A stretch of DNA of 64,000 bases, taken from contig NZ_LT891958.1 of NCBI RefSeq assembly GCF_900186465.1, forward strand, positions 186,001-250,000, given 5' to 3'. This stretch comes from Centipeda felix (GTDB lineage: Bacteria; Bacillota; Negativicutes; Selenomonadales; Selenomonadaceae). The notes under the pieces were generated by a model. The model was given only the letters and a program-made list of their open reading frames with translations. It was not told the DNA's origin and did not search any database. The translations under genes and the position numbers were made by a program. Shown piece by piece: positions 22,933-31,933 of this stretch; position 1 is the stretch's first letter, and the number at the start of each line of letters is the position of its first letter.

Positions 22933-23095
22933 GGAATCCATCACCAACAAGAGAAGCCTTCAGACCCGGCGTGATTTTTTCGTCCGATCATGGTGAAAAA
23001 CCGGACACGCGGCAAAGTCTATGTGGGGAATTTCCCGCCGAAATGCGGGAAAAAAGATGCGTCAAGACAGCGCGGCTGAAGTTATCAGTGCTTCC
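22933..23095 (+). repeat. Interspersed 160-bp element, copy 1
   Basis: This stretch is related along most of its length to two others at 31488-31647 and (inverted) 38385-38546. It ends in TTATCAGTGCTTCC, two bases before the complement of the rhodanese stop codon. Its left end, GGAATCCATCACC, is the most diverged of the three. Shared inner blocks are TTTTTT-GTCCGA, GAAAAACCGGAC, a TTTCCCGCCGAA-like block and AAAAAAGATGCGTCAAGA. The central stem is weak in this copy. No transposase is present. Confidence 0.8.
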
Positions 23096-23096
23096 C

Positions 23097-23516
23097 TTAC
23101 TTCACAACATCCCCATGCCAGTTGTTGATTCCGCCCATCTCCACAATATGCGTATAGCCCATGTTCGCGAGCTTCTGCGCCGCCTGCTGACTGCGTGCAC
23201 CGCTGCGGCAGTAGACAAAGATCATCTGATTCTTGTCGGGCAGCTCCTTTGGCGGCACCGTAGTAATGGATTCGTTCGGCACATTGATGGCATGCGGAAT
23301 ATGTCCGCCTGCATATTCCCCCGCGGTCCGCACGTCCAAAATAATATAGTTCGTATTCTCCGCCATCATCCGCTGCGCCTCATCGGATGCGACGCGCTGA
23401 AATGCTGCCATCGCCTCTTCCTTTCCCTCCGATGCCGCTGACGACTGTGCTCCGCCGCAGCCGGAGACAGACAGCATCAGCATAACGACGAACATCAATA
23501 CCATCCATATTCTCAT
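23097..23516 (-). CDS. Rhodanese-domain lipoprotein
   Basis: The 139-residue product has a lipoprotein signal peptide (MRIWMVLMFVVMLMLSVSGC, lipobox VSGC) and a single rhodanese domain. The domain shows YIILDVRTAGEYAGGHIPHA and the active-site loop YCRSGARS, with the catalytic cysteine present. Such proteins move sulfane sulfur or detoxify thiols at the membrane; the partner is unknown. The gene has a consensus-like promoter (TTGCAA, 17 bp, extended TATAAT) and looks monocistronic. The repeat element copy 1 starts two bases after its stop. Confidence 0.9.
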   Translation of the reverse strand: MRIWMVLMFVVMLMLSVSGCGGAQSSAASEGKEEAMAAFQRVASDEAQRMMAENTNYIILDVRTAGEYAGGHIPHAINVPNESITTVPPKELPDKNQMIFVYCRSGARSQQAAQKLANMGYTHIVEMGGINNWHGDVVK

Positions 23517-23717: not shown

Positions 23718-23903
23718 ATGACAACGGCGGAACTGCTAAAACTTCTAAAAAAGAATGGCTGCACCTTCGTCCGAAACGGTGGTCGCCATGACATATACTT
23801 CAGCCCCATAACAGGAAAACAATTTCCCGTCGGTCGACATAACAAAGAAGAAGTTCCAAATGGCACCCTGCAAAATATTCTCAAATGCGCCGGGCTCAAA
23901 TAA
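23718..23903 (+). CDS. hicA: HicA family mRNA interferase toxin
   Basis: This 61-residue double-stranded-RNA-binding-fold toxin cuts mRNA independently of ribosomes when free of HicB. It shows the HicA pattern TTAELLKLLKKNGCTFVR, the catalytic histidine in GGRHDIYFSP, and a basic second half with PVGRHNKEEVPNGTLQNILK. All family positions are present, so it is probably active. hicB begins 16 bp downstream. The pair sits in an accessory-looking segment beside a duplicated gene end. Confidence 0.92.
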   Translation: MTTAELLKLLKKNGCTFVRNGGRHDIYFSPITGKQFPVGRHNKEEVPNGTLQNILKCAGLK

Positions 23904-23919
23904 TTTGGAGGTGTATCCT

Positions 23920-24315
23920 ATGCAGTATATATACCCAGCACTCTTCAAAGCAAACGATGACGGTATCATCGTCACATTCCCAGACCTAGAAGATACGTTT
24001 ACAGACGGTGAAACGATGCAGGAGGCGTTCGAGAATGCCGAAGATGTGTTGAACCTGATGCTGTGGAATCGCGAAGAAGAAAATGCGACAATTCCTCCGC
24101 CATCAACGCCGGAGAAAATTCTAGTGCCACATGGAACTATTCTGACGATGATTAAGGCAGATACTCTCGCCTATCGCAAGCGCCACGATCAAAAGACCAT
24201 TCGTCGCAGTGTGACACTTCCACGTTGGTTGGACAGCATAGCTCGCGAGCGCAATATCAACTTCTCCCAACTGATGCAAAACGCCATTCGCAGAGAATGC
24301 GGCATCAGCAGATAA
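23920..24315 (+). CDS. hicB: HicB family antitoxin
   Basis: The 131-residue antitoxin has the partially degraded RNase H-like HicB fold at the N terminus (YPALFKANDDGIIVTFPDLE followed by a TFTDGETMQEAFENAEDVL block). Its C-terminal DNA-binding part, RRSVTLPRWLDSIARERNIN followed by FSQLMQNAIRRE, reads as a ribbon-helix-helix. It should neutralise HicA and repress the operon. The ATG at 23920 has TTTGGAGG eight bases upstream; the longer frame overlaps hicA without a ribosome site. A terminator follows at once. Confidence 0.9.
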   Translation: MQYIYPALFKANDDGIIVTFPDLEDTFTDGETMQEAFENAEDVLNLMLWNREEENATIPPPSTPEKILVPHGTILTMIKADTLAYRKRHDQKTIRRSVTLPRWLDSIARERNINFSQLMQNAIRRECGISR

Positions 24316-24362: not shown

Positions 24363-24391
24363 AGCAGTGCCTTTACCCTTTTGCCACCGGC

Positions 24392-24472
24392 CACCGTCAG
24401 TGAAACAGAATCATAATCGCACCGCCGATGGTCGGCAGGGCAGCAATCCAAAAGCGCAAAACAGGCAGCGGC
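24392..24472 (-). pseudogene. 81-bp duplicate of the 3' end of the TSUP transporter gene
   Basis: This segment is identical to 27042-27122 except for one base. It contains the last 25 or so codons and the stop of the TauE/SafE-type gene, in the same orientation, but the rest of the gene is absent. It begins right after the end of flgE (13 bp) and ends before the hicAB terminator. The two copies are direct repeats exactly 2650 bp apart that bracket flgE, the TIGR02530-type gene and the small RHH gene. Confidence 0.92.
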
Positions 24473-24485
24473 TCTGCGTTATGCC

Positions 24486-26069
24486 TTATCGTTTCATGTT
24501 AATCAATGTTTCAAGCATCTCATCTCCGACGGTAATGATTTTGGAGTTGGACTGGAATCCACGTTGTGTGATAATCATATCGGAGAACTGGTCAGCAAGA
24601 TCGACGTTTGACATCTCAAGTGAGGACGGTGTGATTTTTGCTCCCGCGCTCTCAACGGTCTGCCCGCAAACAGCTTTCACGTTGGAGTTGTTCGAGTCCT
24701 GATAGAGGTTTCCACCGAGTTTGGTTAAACCGGACGGGTTCGCAAAAACGGCTACCGCCACCTGTGCCTCTGCACGTCGCACCCCGTTCGTGTATACACC
24801 CGTAATGACACCTGCAGAATCAAATGACACGGATGCAAGGGTACCGCTTGCGTACCCATCTGCGGCAGCCTTGATCGTATCATATCCTGCATACTGCGTG
24901 AGCGGAGATTCGTCATTGGCGAACTGGAGCGAAATTTCATTGGCTTGCCGTGCACCATTGGGTGCTGTCTGCTCAGCAGACAGCGTCGCTACTTCTGAGC
25001 TACTCGCCGTCGTCGGTGGAGGTGCAACGGGCGTAGTGACATGACTGTCCGGATCCGGGGTCACCGTCTGAATGCCTCCGAGAGCACCTGCACGAAGCAC
25101 ACCGTCTTCATCAAAGGAAATTGTGGTCGGCGGTAGCGTATGCTTCGTCTTCGACCCATCGATATTTTTTACCTCCGGATTGCCAACACGGGCAATCCAC
25201 GTACTGGCTTTCTTCGTTACTGTATTGCCATCTTCATCCGTATAAGTCACCGTTGTAACAAGTGCCTTTTCCAAAAAAACGATACTTTCATGTTTACGCC
25301 CAAGCGTGTCAAAATAACCAAACGAGGTTACTTTTGGCATAGATCGACCAATTGTGTAGGTCCCCGATGTCACCGTCTGCTTCGTGCCGTCACTCAGCGA
25401 CAATGTCACAGGCTGTGCCTTACTTGCTGTAATATACATGCCATCGTTCGCGCTTGTTCGCACTTTCGCCGTCGGTGGTGTCGTACTCGTGTCCATGAAT
25501 GTATAGCCTGTAATCATCGACGTGTTGGAATCCAGGTTCTCAGAGTACTTTGAAACCTCCGTTGCCTTGGGCGCCATCATCTTCCCCGCCTCAATGACAA
25601 TATTTTCCGTTGCACCACTTGTCTGGACCTTGGTGTGCTCCGTCGTCTTATTCATCCAGCCCTGAACATAAAGACCGGAACTCGGCAAGACATAGTTTCC
25701 TGCTGCGTCAAACTCAAATGCTCCGTTACGCGTGTAAAAGGTCTGCTCCCCCTGCTTCACCATAAAGAGTGCATTTCCCGTTAAGGCAAGGTCGGTATTC
25801 TTTCCCGTTCCCTGTACAGCGCCGTCACCAAAGATAGTATCGATGCCGCCAACACTTACGCCAAGACCGATCTGTTTGGGATTTGTTCCGCCAATCGTCG
25901 TACCCGGGCTCGATGCACCTGAGAGCGTCTGCGAGAGCATGTCCTCAAAGGTCACACGCCCCCGCTTGAACCCCGTCGTATTTACATTGGCAATGTTGTT
26001 GCCAATGACATCCATACGCGTGTTATGACTTTTCAGCCCTGATACTCCTGAAAAGAGTGAACGCATCAT
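24486..26069 (-). CDS. flgE: Flagellar hook protein FlgE
   Basis: FlgE builds the curved hook outside the cell. The 527-residue product begins MMRSLFSGVSGLKSHNTRMD and has the rod-hook N-terminal motif VIGNNIANVNTTGFKRGRVTF, then GNALFMVKQGEQTFYTRNGAF, a large variable middle domain (about 150-420) and the C-terminal motif LEMSNVDLADQFSDMIITQR followed by NSKIITVGDEMLETLINMKR. Both conserved coiled-coil ends are present, so it is intact. The insert makes it longer than the E. coli protein. It follows the TIGR02530-type gene but lies 21 kb from the main flagellar operon, and flgD and fliK are not next to it. Confidence 0.95.
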   Translation of the reverse strand: MMRSLFSGVSGLKSHNTRMDVIGNNIANVNTTGFKRGRVTFEDMLSQTLSGASSPGTTIGGTNPKQIGLGVSVGGIDTIFGDGAVQGTGKNTDLALTGNALFMVKQGEQTFYTRNGAFEFDAAGNYVLPSSGLYVQGWMNKTTEHTKVQTSGATENIVIEAGKMMAPKATEVSKYSENLDSNTSMITGYTFMDTSTTPPTAKVRTSANDGMYITASKAQPVTLSLSDGTKQTVTSGTYTIGRSMPKVTSFGYFDTLGRKHESIVFLEKALVTTVTYTDEDGNTVTKKASTWIARVGNPEVKNIDGSKTKHTLPPTTISFDEDGVLRAGALGGIQTVTPDPDSHVTTPVAPPPTTASSSEVATLSAEQTAPNGARQANEISLQFANDESPLTQYAGYDTIKAAADGYASGTLASVSFDSAGVITGVYTNGVRRAEAQVAVAVFANPSGLTKLGGNLYQDSNNSNVKAVCGQTVESAGAKITPSSLEMSNVDLADQFSDMIITQRGFQSNSKIITVGDEMLETLINMKR

Positions 26070-26091
26070 AATAAATCTCTCCCCTCACATA

Positions 26092-26466
26092 TTACAAAAT
26101 GGCAGCACTGTCGATGTTGGTAAAGATGTTTTCCTTCGCACTCGCGTCATCGAGTGCCGTGATCACCGTGCGATTTTTTACGCTGACGACCATGGCAAGC
26201 CCATGACTCATGTAAATGAGCGCATCGCGCACGCCCTTTGCCGCCATACGATCAACCGCATCATCAATCCGTGCGAGATCATCTGCCGTGAGATCGACGC
26301 CGCGCTGTTCGATCCGCGCCTTTGCATGCGCCGAGAAACGCGTACGGCTCTCCGCCTGATTGAGCAGTGCCTGAAAAGCATCCATGGGTAGAGACGCTCC
26401 CTGTCCCCTGCCGACGCGTGCGCTTCCCTGCTCGGCGCCCCCTTGTACAGCAGTATTTACTTTCAT
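26092..26466 (-). CDS. TIGR02530-type flagellar operon protein
   Basis: This 124-residue soluble protein has the family's core: RTRFSAHAKARIEQRGVDLT, DDAVDRMAAKGVRDALIYM and VVSVKNRTVITALD, then ENIFTNIDSAAIL at the end. In Firmicutes and Negativicutes it is normally encoded between flgD and flgE; its role is unknown but it may assist hook assembly. Here it is 22 bp upstream of flgE with no flgD. The glycine- and glutamine-rich N terminus is unstructured-looking. Confidence 0.85.
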   Translation of the reverse strand: MKVNTAVQGGAEQGSARVGRGQGASLPMDAFQALLNQAESRTRFSAHAKARIEQRGVDLTADDLARIDDAVDRMAAKGVRDALIYMSHGLAMVVSVKNRTVITALDDASAKENIFTNIDSAAIL

Positions 26467-26629
26467 TTTTCACCTACACTTTATATCATATTTTATAACA
26501 TAATTTTTCAATCACTATATCGTATATATTTCATATTTACTTAAGCATTTTATAGATATGTTTTACAACAATATATCAATCATATATTTTATAACCACTC
26601 ATATATAAACTAACCATGAGGTGATATAT
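26467..26629. other. AT-rich divergent intergenic region
   Basis: These 163 bp are almost entirely A and T with many TATATA-containing near-palindromes and separate the flgE pair (minus) from the small RHH gene (plus). They must hold both promoters, but several -10-like hexamers overlap and none is clearly best. The repeated CATATAT units are plausible operators for the RHH protein. Confidence 0.4.
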
Positions 26630-26824
26630 ATGACCACAAAACTAGTAATCACAAAGAAAAAACGCGGAGAGGATGGGCATAAAACCCTATCCATCCGCGT
26701 ACGGGAAGATATTATTGACCGTCTGGACGACCTCGCTGGTCAGACGGGGCGCTCACGCAACGAATTGATCGGACTATTGCTCAATTTCGCGCTGAACAAC
26801 AGTGAAGTCGTCGCTGAGCGGTAA
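26630..26824 (+). CDS. Small ribbon-helix-helix (CopG/Arc-like) DNA-binding protein
   Basis: The 64-residue protein has a basic N terminus, a beta strand HKTLSIRVREDIIDRLDDLA and the helix pair GQTGRSRNELIGLLLNFALNN, the form of an Arc/CopG repressor. Small RHH proteins usually control their own operon or act as antitoxins. No intact toxin gene follows. I start at 26630 because GAGGTG lies seven bases upstream; GTG 26621 overlaps that site. A remnant of another gene and a terminator come next. Confidence 0.75.
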   Translation: MTTKLVITKKKRGEDGHKTLSIRVREDIIDRLDDLAGQTGRSRNELIGLLLNFALNNSEVVAER

Positions 26825-26858
26825 GTAATCGCTGATAGATTCAACCTGTTTTTCACAT

Positions 26859-26981
26859 CGAAATCTTGCTCTGACGGCAAGAGCGGAGGGGATTCGTCTG
26901 AATCAGTTGGCTGCCGCGCTAATTGCCGGTGGGCTCAAAAACGTTACGAATACATACGAAAAGAGCCATGATACGGCATAA
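26859..26981 (+). pseudogene. Remnant resembling a HicB-type antitoxin C terminus
   Basis: A 40-codon open stretch without a start codon reads RNLALTARAEGIRLNQLAAA then LIAGGLKNVT and ends in TAA inside the following terminator. The pattern 'ARAEGxxLNQLxAxLI' is that of the C-terminal RHH helices of HicB-like antitoxins. In-frame stops lie upstream. I read it as a decayed gene end; chance is possible for so short a piece. Confidence 0.45.
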
Positions 26982-27002
26982 TTTCCGTATCACGGCTCTT
27001 TT
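26959..27002 (+). terminator. Terminator after the RHH gene and remnant
   Basis: AAAAGAGCCATGATACGG (26959-26976) pairs with CCGTATCACGGCTCTTTT (26985-27002) with one A-C mismatch in an 18-bp stem. A and T ends on both sides suit either direction. Confidence 0.9.
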
Positions 27003-27041
27003 CGTTCCATGACAAATCATTCTATATCACTTCTGCAGCAA

Positions 27042-27122
27042 CACCGTCAGTGAAACAGAATCATAATCGCACCGCCGATGGTCGGCAGGGCAACAATCCA
27101 AAAGCGCAAAACAGGCAGCGGC
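27042..27122 (-). repeat. 81-bp direct repeat, copy within the intact TSUP gene
   Basis: This is the intact-gene copy of the segment duplicated at 24392-24472, with one difference in 81 bases. It spans the last codons, the stop and five bases beyond. Confidence 0.92.
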
Positions 27123-27805
27123 GCGAGGTGCGTCAGCTTTGCCCCGGCGTACGAGCCGAGCGAGAGCGCGACGAGCGTCTGGATGAACAGCCACGGCTCC
27201 AGCTGTCCATAGAGGAGATAGCCGATGCCGCCGCTGATCGAGATGGGCACGATGATCATCATCGTTGTTCCGATGGCCTGCAGGAGCGGCACACCGAACA
27301 CTACCATGAGGGCGATCTGTATATAGGCCGCAGAGCCGATGCCGAACGCGCCAGAGAGGACGCCGCAGAGAAAGCCGATGGGCAGTCCATAGAGATAGAG
27401 CCGCCGCCCCGTCAAGAGCTCCTCACGTACGTGGATATGCGCCGAGAGCCACACGGCACGGTAAATGCGCAGATAGAGGAGGAAGGCGCTCGACAGGAGC
27501 ATGACGCCCGTAAAGAGGCTGAGATTTGGTGCCTCCATGTGGTTGGAAATCACCGCACCGAGGAGCGCCCCGAGAAGGCCGCCCGCGCCAAGTACCGCCC
27601 CTGTCAGGGGCACGACTTCACGCTCGCGGTAGTGACTGACTGCCCCCGACAGTGTCGTAAATGCCATAGATCCGAGGGCGACGGCAAGCGCCTGATGGAT
27701 GGGCACGCCGAATCCGACGACGAGCAAAGTGATGATCACGCCGCTGCCGCCCGCCCCGACAAAACCGATAATTCCGCCCATGAGAAGCATCGATAAGAAG
27801 AGCAT
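27047..27805 (-). CDS. TSUP (TauE/SafE) family membrane transporter
   Basis: The 252-residue protein has about eight hydrophobic segments in two repeated halves, each with the glycine-rich start typical of the family: GIIGFVGAGGSGVIITLL and GLPIGFLCGVLSGAFGIGSA. TSUP proteins export or import small sulfur-containing anions such as sulfite, sulfoacetate or taurine; the substrate here is unknown. No sulfur genes are adjacent except the rhodanese lipoprotein 4 kb away. The 3' end is duplicated upstream of hicAB. Confidence 0.87.
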   Translation of the reverse strand: MLFLSMLLMGGIIGFVGAGGSGVIITLLVVGFGVPIHQALAVALGSMAFTTLSGAVSHYREREVVPLTGAVLGAGGLLGALLGAVISNHMEAPNLSLFTGVMLLSSAFLLYLRIYRAVWLSAHIHVREELLTGRRLYLYGLPIGFLCGVLSGAFGIGSAAYIQIALMVVFGVPLLQAIGTTMMIIVPISISGGIGYLLYGQLEPWLFIQTLVALSLGSYAGAKLTHLAPLPVLRFWIVALPTIGGAIMILFH

Positions 27806-27879: not shown

Positions 27880-27954
27880 TGGTGACGCCTATGGGATTCG
27901 AACCCATGAACCCGCCGTGAGAGGGCGGTGTCTTAACCACTTGACGAAGGCGCC
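27880..27954 (-). tRNA. tRNA-Glu (anticodon CTC), second of a tandem pair
   Basis: The minus strand folds as a cloverleaf: acceptor GGCGCCT/AGGCGTC, anticodon stem CCGCC/GGCGG around loop CTCTCAC (anticodon CTC), T arm GTTCGAATCCC and encoded CCA. The sequence matches the tRNA-Glu pattern and is identical to the copy at 27960-28034; only 5 bp lie between them. Confidence 0.95.
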
Positions 27955-27959
27955 GAATT

Positions 27960-28034
27960 TGGTGACGCCTATGGGATTCGAACCCATGAACCCGCCGTGA
28001 GAGGGCGGTGTCTTAACCACTTGACGAAGGCGCC
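27960..28034 (-). tRNA. tRNA-Glu (anticodon CTC), first of a tandem pair
   Basis: Identical 75-nt gene including an encoded CCA, transcribed first. Loop CTCTCAC gives anticodon CTC, reading GAG codons. No promoter was assigned; the truncated transporter fragment lies about 65 bp upstream. Confidence 0.95.
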
Positions 28035-31487: not shown

Positions 31488-31647
31488 GGTAACACTGATA
31501 AAATGAGGTCTGCCAAATTGGCGTAGATTTTTTGTCCGAACAAGGTGGAAAACCAGACGCAGAGTGGGGCTCTGTGGAGGATTTTCCGCCGAAGTACGGG
31601 CGAAAAAGATGCGTCAAGATGGTAGTGCCGAATTTATCAGTACTTCC
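31488..31647 (+). repeat. Interspersed 160-bp element, copy 2, inside the groES-groEL gap
   Basis: Same orientation as copy 1, with ends GGTAACACTGATAAA and TTTATCAGTACTTCC forming imperfect terminal inverted repeats. The centre has a hairpin CAGAG/CTCTG where copy 3 has CATAGC/GCTATG. It starts four bases beyond the groES stop and ends 30 bp before the groEL start, so it is transcribed as part of the groESL mRNA, in antisense to its own orientation. Confidence 0.88.
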
Positions 31648-31651
31648 CTAA

Positions 31652-31933
31652 TTACAGGATTGCCAGAATGTCGCTCTCGCGAACAATGAGGTAGTCCTTG
31701 TCGTCAACCTTGATCTCAGAGCCCGAGTACTTCGAGAAAACGACGCTGTCGCCTTCCTTGACCTCAAGGCCTGCACGCTGTCCGTTCTCGAGGAGCTTGC
31801 CCGTACCGACCGCAACGACCTTGCCCTTCTGCGGCTTTTCCTTTGCCGTATCGGGGAGCACAATGCCGCTCGCCGTCGTGACATCGCTCTCTGCGACTTC
31901 AATGACAACACGTTCGCCCAATGGCTTAATCAT
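31652..31933 (-). CDS. groES: 10-kDa co-chaperonin GroES
   Basis: The 93-residue lid of the chaperonin. It starts [20 protein letters not shown] and shows the mobile-loop region [17 protein letters not shown], the GxV core KVVAVGTG and the C-terminal [18 protein letters not shown]. Length and sequence are normal. It leads the groESL operon behind a CIRCE operator and a consensus-like promoter. Confidence 0.98.

Follow-up and report, generated by a model that had tools for sequence, protein, structure and literature searches.

An accessory flagellar hook module, probably inserted with an 81-bp target duplication at the 3' end of a TSUP gene in Centipeda felix

Gene content of the locus

The window, meaning the whole stretch of 64,000 nucleotides that was analyzed, contains an intact TSUP (TauE/SafE) gene whose 3' end is present twice (Table 1). 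The two copies are direct repeats of 81 nt, identical at 80 of 81 positions and spaced 2650 bp apart. Gene calls place one of them at the end of the intact gene, where it comprises the last codons, the stop and then 5 bp past the stop, and leave the other as an isolated remnant; the first-pass annotation had described the pair in the same terms. The sole mismatch is a G at window position 24443 against an A at 27093. At this site, position 52 of the repeat, all 13 other genomes of our genus sample (14 genomes, including the one under study, G000) have an A, which argues that the G of copy 1 is derived and arose in the remnant; it changes a Val codon to Ala.

A search of the whole 2.4-Mb genome with the repeat, at an E value of 0.001, found nothing beyond these two copies. 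The pair is one of three families of direct repeats of at least 40 nt in the 64 kb, the remaining two being a tandem tRNA-Glu(CTC) pair to the right of TSUP (27880-28034, 96% identical) and a 54-nt pair (23051-23104 and 31603-31656, 78% identical). Further right lies groEL, which has no match in the regions around TSUP that were compared from the 13 other genomes of the genus; groEL comes after TSUP in G020, a member of another genus. The labels IS30-like, rplQ, motA/motB and terminator are presumptive.

Table 1. Features of the TSUP locus and of the related hicAB pairs (window coordinates unless a locus is named).
Feature	Position	Strand	Remarks
hicA-hicB pair	23718..24315	+	Neighbor of TSUP before insertion; left of copy 1
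Copy 1, TSUP 3' end remnant, 81 bp	24392..24472	-	Isolated fragment; adjoins hicAB side of ancestral junction
Inserted segment, 2569 bp	24473..27041	.	Missing from G010
flgE2, accessory flagellar hook protein, 527 aa	24486..26069	-	Domain matches; purifying selection (from substitution rates)
TIGR02530 / Flagellar_put partner protein, 124 aa	26092..26466	-	TIGR02530 96.6 bits, cut-off 83.2
Ribbon-helix-helix (RHH_1) protein, 67 aa	26621..26824	+	Divergent from hook genes
hicB 3' remnant	about 26857-26940	+	Matches hicB after RHH in G004 and G009
Right end of insert, about 100 bp	26941..27041	.	Contains terminator-like hairpin, 26956-27005
Copy 2, TSUP 3' end, 81 bp	27042..27122	-	Runs into intact TSUP gene
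Intact TSUP (TauE/SafE) gene	27047..27805	-	Insertion target; Pfam TauE E 9.6e-34
ECH-side hicAB	L084:5801-6446 (G005); L074:13259-13889 (G011)		Related to TSUP-side hicAB of the window

Three genes lie between the copies. FlgE2 has a Flg_bb_rod N-terminus and a Flg_bbr_C C-terminus and falls in the FlgEFG subfamily; it scores 240.9 bits against TIGR03506 (cut-off 70.25) and under the cut-off of every FlgE equivalog model listed. In comparisons with three relatives, dN for flgE2 was 0.12-0.16 and dS, which is near saturation, exceeded 2; by this measure the gene is under purifying selection. The RHH_1 protein we infer to be a regulator. The stretch between the TIGR02530 and RHH genes (26467-26620), a candidate RHH operator, is AT-rich and has conserved stretches in 8 aligned genomes, with TTTATAA in 8/8.

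The first-pass annotation was right in placing hook genes and a small RHH gene in this segment, and had missed a fourth part, what remains of the 3' end of a hicB gene. The remnant matches the hicB genes of G004 and G009 at 71% over 28 aa (E 1.3e-7 in both) and, as DNA, at 60-65% over 77 bp; among the 14 genomes searched its only remaining match outside its own genome at E <=0.1 was in G003 (0.048), and on its own it matches Pfam HicB weakly (E 0.12). The final 100 bp or so of the insert, in which the arms of the hairpin are 95% complementary, are unmatched elsewhere in their own genome or in the genus at E 0.001, and the insert's right flank found only itself when searched for in the rest of the genome.

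An uninterrupted site in the nearest relative

The closest genome available, G010, which we take as Selenomonas flueggei ATCC 43531 (NZ_GG694008.1), has hicAB and then TSUP directly, with one copy of the 81-bp end and an uninterrupted junction. With 2650 bp removed, the window can be aligned to G010 across hicB, the hicB terminator and TSUP, with a single gap, of 5 bp, close to the junction. Thus 2569 bp have been inserted and 81 bp from the 3' end of TSUP duplicated, with copy 1 on the hicAB side and copy 2 on that of TSUP. An uninterrupted TSUP-hicAB junction, as the first-pass annotation had suggested looking for, does exist in a relative, and its reading of an insertion into the end of TSUP is borne out. 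Rhodanese genes adjoin TSUP in all of the remaining 12 genus genomes, and the insertion is present in 1 of 14. That the 81 bp were duplicated by the assembly itself is scarcely credible: the genome is a draft of 17 contigs, but the repeat lies inside a 625-kb contig, its copies differ by one base, and both flanks agree with the G010 junction.

The 81-bp copies match G010 at 76-77 of 81 positions, against 80/81 between themselves. Outside the repeat, TSUP differs between the window and G010 at 94 of 683 sites (13.8%). Were the duplication older than the split of these two lineages, at most one difference in 81 positions would be expected with a Poisson probability of 0.0002 at the rate of the remaining TSUP, and of 0.06-0.09 when the mean is set to the 4-4.5 differences counted within the 81 bp. 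The greater closeness of the copies to each other and the low probability favor, without proving, an insertion that postdates the split from G010. The alternative is that the insertion is old and dates from the common ancestor: S. flueggei would have lost it when its two 81-bp copies recombined, and gene conversion would have kept the copies of C. felix alike. The state of G010 is exactly what such a deletion would leave, the broken TolC-ECH arrangement described below is common to both genomes, and the low-rate estimate is compatible with it; however, a divergence of 1/81 between copies is far below that of the orthologs over the rest of TSUP, barring gene conversion, and we regard this history as unlikely.

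Identity to G010 along the locus is mosaic. In 250-bp bins it is 97-100% (one bin 95%) at 17.25-20.0 and 21.75-23.5 kb, 84-91% between these tracts, and 82-93% from 23.5 kb on. The two near-identical tracts are evidence of recent homologous exchange within about 1 kb of the insertion.

The accessory hook module in the genus

DNA homology to the inserted genes spans a module that extends from about the flgE2 stop to at or near the RHH stop. This module lies beside an enoyl-CoA hydratase (ECH) gene in 7 of the 13 other genus genomes, about 23-37 kb from TSUP, and in all seven it is on the TSUP strand and upstream of TSUP. Six of them (G001, G002, G004, G005, G006 and G009) carry it between a TolC-like gene and ECH, some 23-27 kb from TSUP, with long and conserved flanks; about 1.5 kb separates module and TolC-like gene in G006, and flgE2 is reduced to remnants in G009. 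The seventh, G011, has a truncated module next to ECH, about 37 kb from TSUP, with the TolC-like gene some 12 kb away. The module is followed by hicA-hicB in G004 and G009. This occurrence at the ECH locus, together with the match of the hicB remnant to these two genomes, makes the insert best read as a slice of that locus: the cargo is chromosomal, a resident accessory hook module of the genus plus a decayed hicB 3' end. An additional hicAB pair, related to the TSUP-side pair (HicB 75-78% over 139 aa), lies just past ECH in G005 and G011, so the hicAB common to G000 and G010 at TSUP may stem from the same neighborhood at an earlier time.

The TolC-ECH locus is empty in three genomes, where matches to its two sides lie 334 (G012), 265 (G013) and 258 bp (G003) apart; G003 and G013 carry a more distant module at another place (flgE 83%, TIGR02530 53-54%, RHH 56-61%). 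In G007 and G008 a canonical-type flgE occupies this locus, along with what is left of the TIGR02530 gene and of its promoter region; with the canonical query no TIGR02530 gene was detected in these two genomes at E 0.001, and the accessory query gave only fragments. The flgE genes in question (L091:10269-12311 and L087:11519-13546, respectively) are the only ones found in the two genomes and group with canonical FlgE. The TolC-like gene and ECH of G000 and G010 are on separate contigs, and neither of the separated loci shows any trace of the module. The TolC-like proteins of these two genomes are 67% and 69% similar to the query, versus 78-88% in the six others searched. A transposase-like, presumably IS30-like gene with rve and HTH_38 domains (L125:10845-11915, on G000:C16) adjoins the TolC-like gene in G000 and is missing there in G010.

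At the level of the family, the stretch from TIGR02530 to RHH has matches in 61 genomes of a sample of 121. Most of these are confined to the TIGR02530 part; some genomes of other genera, such as G083, G077 and G026, match both parts.

Divergence from the seven ECH-locus relatives, expressed as dS, is 0.74-1.06 for TIGR02530, 0.85-1.50 for RHH and 0.91-1.25 for TSUP. The TIGR02530 and RHH values are at or above those of most other genes compared, which reach down to 0.51. Since TIGR02530 and RHH resemble TSUP in this respect, the module is not a recent import from any of the seven. flgE2 is more diverged, its dS over the compared parts being 1.6-2.9, with one further value saturated (the 61-codon remnant of G009, also saturated, was set aside). 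In a tree of FlgE N-termini, moreover, the ECH locus carries different flgE clades in different species. The higher divergence of flgE2 and these differing clades point to replacement of the flgE allele.

Origin of the insert

Several kinds of mobile element were considered as sources and rejected. A search of plasmids with FlgE2 gave 215 records, all of less than 60% identity; TIGR02530 matched a single phage record, at 43%; and viral contigs yielded no match to FlgE2 and no exact match to a 35-base core of the repeat. An insertion sequence or composite transposon is contradicted by insert genes without a transposase, by the lack of terminal inverted repeats of at least 10 nt (of 21 inverted repeats of this length in 24380-27135, none pairs the insert ends), and by a duplication of 81 bp rather than a short one. 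Domains of integrases, recombinases or transposases are absent from the three genes of the insert and the hicB remnant, and the first-pass annotation was thus correct, as far as those three genes go, that there is no integrase inside.

The same annotation had proposed site-specific integration, in which the TSUP 3' end would be attB and the 81-bp copies attL and attR, the integrase having been lost or acting in trans. This would account equally well for the direct repeats, the whole gene end and the relations of the flanks. It is nevertheless very improbable, given that the insert's genes include neither an integrase nor another mobile gene, that the genus carries the cargo as a resident block of its chromosome, that the repeat core lacks the viral match just mentioned, and that the TSUP end is not reused in the genomes searched: among the matches listed for 60 genomes (53 of them matching), the only short, near-identical fragment of the TSUP C-terminus is the window's own, and each of 10 loci in named relatives, of 12 fetched, has a single TSUP tail.

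We consider it likely that the accessory hook module was inserted at the end of TSUP with a long target duplication, and that the repeat pair is a scar of this event rather than a switch. For the course of the insertion we infer two possible routes. In the first, a large tandem duplication from TSUP through the module would have been followed by an internal deletion. In the second, replication would have switched templates out of the TSUP end and later back into it. Either would yield the order flank, 81 bp, cargo, 81 bp, flank. The position of the module upstream of TSUP and on its strand in 7/7 relatives is the order that the duplication-deletion route requires. No microhomology is evident by eye at the right junction; this, the unmatched 100 bp or so at the right end of the insert and the occurrence of the insertion in just 1 of 14 genus genomes speak against the favored explanation. 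TSUP remained whole because copy 2 stayed with it, and the fragment beside hicAB is most likely a neutral scar.

Because the TolC-ECH linkage is broken in G000 and G010 and neither retains a trace of the module, the immediate donor site is not seen. The recent homologous exchange near the site means that capture of transferred DNA is also possible. A variant of the favored explanation, whose odds overlap with it, would accordingly have the module imported from an unsampled relative, by natural transformation or other transfer, with illegitimate recombination at the TSUP end. The exchange within about 1 kb of the insertion and the unseen donor site speak for import, as does homology-facilitated illegitimate recombination, which PMC3240628 describes in competent species. 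Against it, no sampled genome has a module near enough for a recent donor, and a simple event with one anchor gives by itself no 81-bp target duplication. We give this variant a real chance, although one short of even.

Comparison with known systems

Insertion with long target duplication is reportedly due to Nobusato et al. (2000), who compared Helicobacter pylori 26695 with J99. Restriction-modification genes are a frequent cargo of such insertions in H. pylori, according to the relevant passages of PMC1643837, PMC3031569 and PMC3874152, the last of which gives "in the order of 100 bp" as the length of the target duplications and notes a frequent link to rearrangements. The C. felix locus resembles these cases in having inserted genes between direct copies of the target, as revealed by two related genomes: the target is single-copy in the relative, 81-bp copies bracket the insert, and neither a recombinase among its three genes nor a terminal inverted repeat of at least 10 nt was found. 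It differs in its cargo of flgE2, TIGR02530, RHH and hicB tail in place of restriction-modification genes, an association that is frequent and that we do not take as definition. Transposed genes of Arabidopsis, as portrayed in part of PMC2869330, are likewise ordinary genes flanked on both sides by direct repeats, and the orthologous site without the gene often carries the repeat sequence; that system is eukaryotic, however, and some parental sites are known there, unlike the immediate donor here. Homology-facilitated illegitimate recombination, with one homologous and one illegitimate end in the account excerpted from PMC3240628, is similar to the present insertion in this respect, but would not alone predict an 81-bp duplication on both sides.

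The repeat pair is real and largely explained, as a further case of insertion with long target duplication. It suggests that a hook gene, besides restriction-modification genes, can relocate in this way with no recombinase of its own. The wider picture is of a second hook locus that shifts in place and allele within the genus, the places seen being the TolC-ECH locus, the second place in G003 and G013, and the TSUP end in G000. One may speculate, at rather long odds, that flgE2-TIGR02530-RHH is a semi-mobile hook-swapping cassette, which would be an old accessory locus of the genus, repeatedly change hook allele and place, relocate as a unit, like restriction-modification genes, with long duplications of the target, and provide alternative hooks under an RHH regulator.

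Canonical flgE and motility

C. felix has a separate canonical flgE of 678 aa from the start, without an internal stop (G000:C16:291133-293166), that adjoins its own TIGR02530 partner. In the FlgE N-terminal tree (23 rows, with 9 of 20 inner branches open and bootstrap unsettled) the canonical genes cluster together (100/99), to the exclusion of the accessory ones. G010 has the canonical flgE only and lacks the accessory module. If the two 81-bp copies recombined, flgE2, TIGR02530 and RHH would be lost and the locus would return to the S. flueggei arrangement. The first-pass annotation had foreseen that such a deletion would remove flgE and abolish motility; the former stands for flgE2, but the latter is doubtful, since an uninterrupted canonical flgE exists elsewhere. 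Judged from gene content, loss of motility is not predicted. This corrects the inference that the segment carries the cell's sole hook gene.

The accessory locus offers a handle on the role of a second, RHH-flanked hook protein in oral Selenomonas. In the titles and excerpts returned for Selenomonas and flgE, no paper was evidently about a second hook gene. Campylobacter jejuni likewise has two distinct FlgE proteins in one genome, FlgE of 58 kDa and FlgE2 of 92 kDa, of which only the longer was found in the hook according to the portion of PMC5069557 consulted; in C. felix, by contrast, a TIGR02530 partner and an RHH gene accompany the accessory hook gene.
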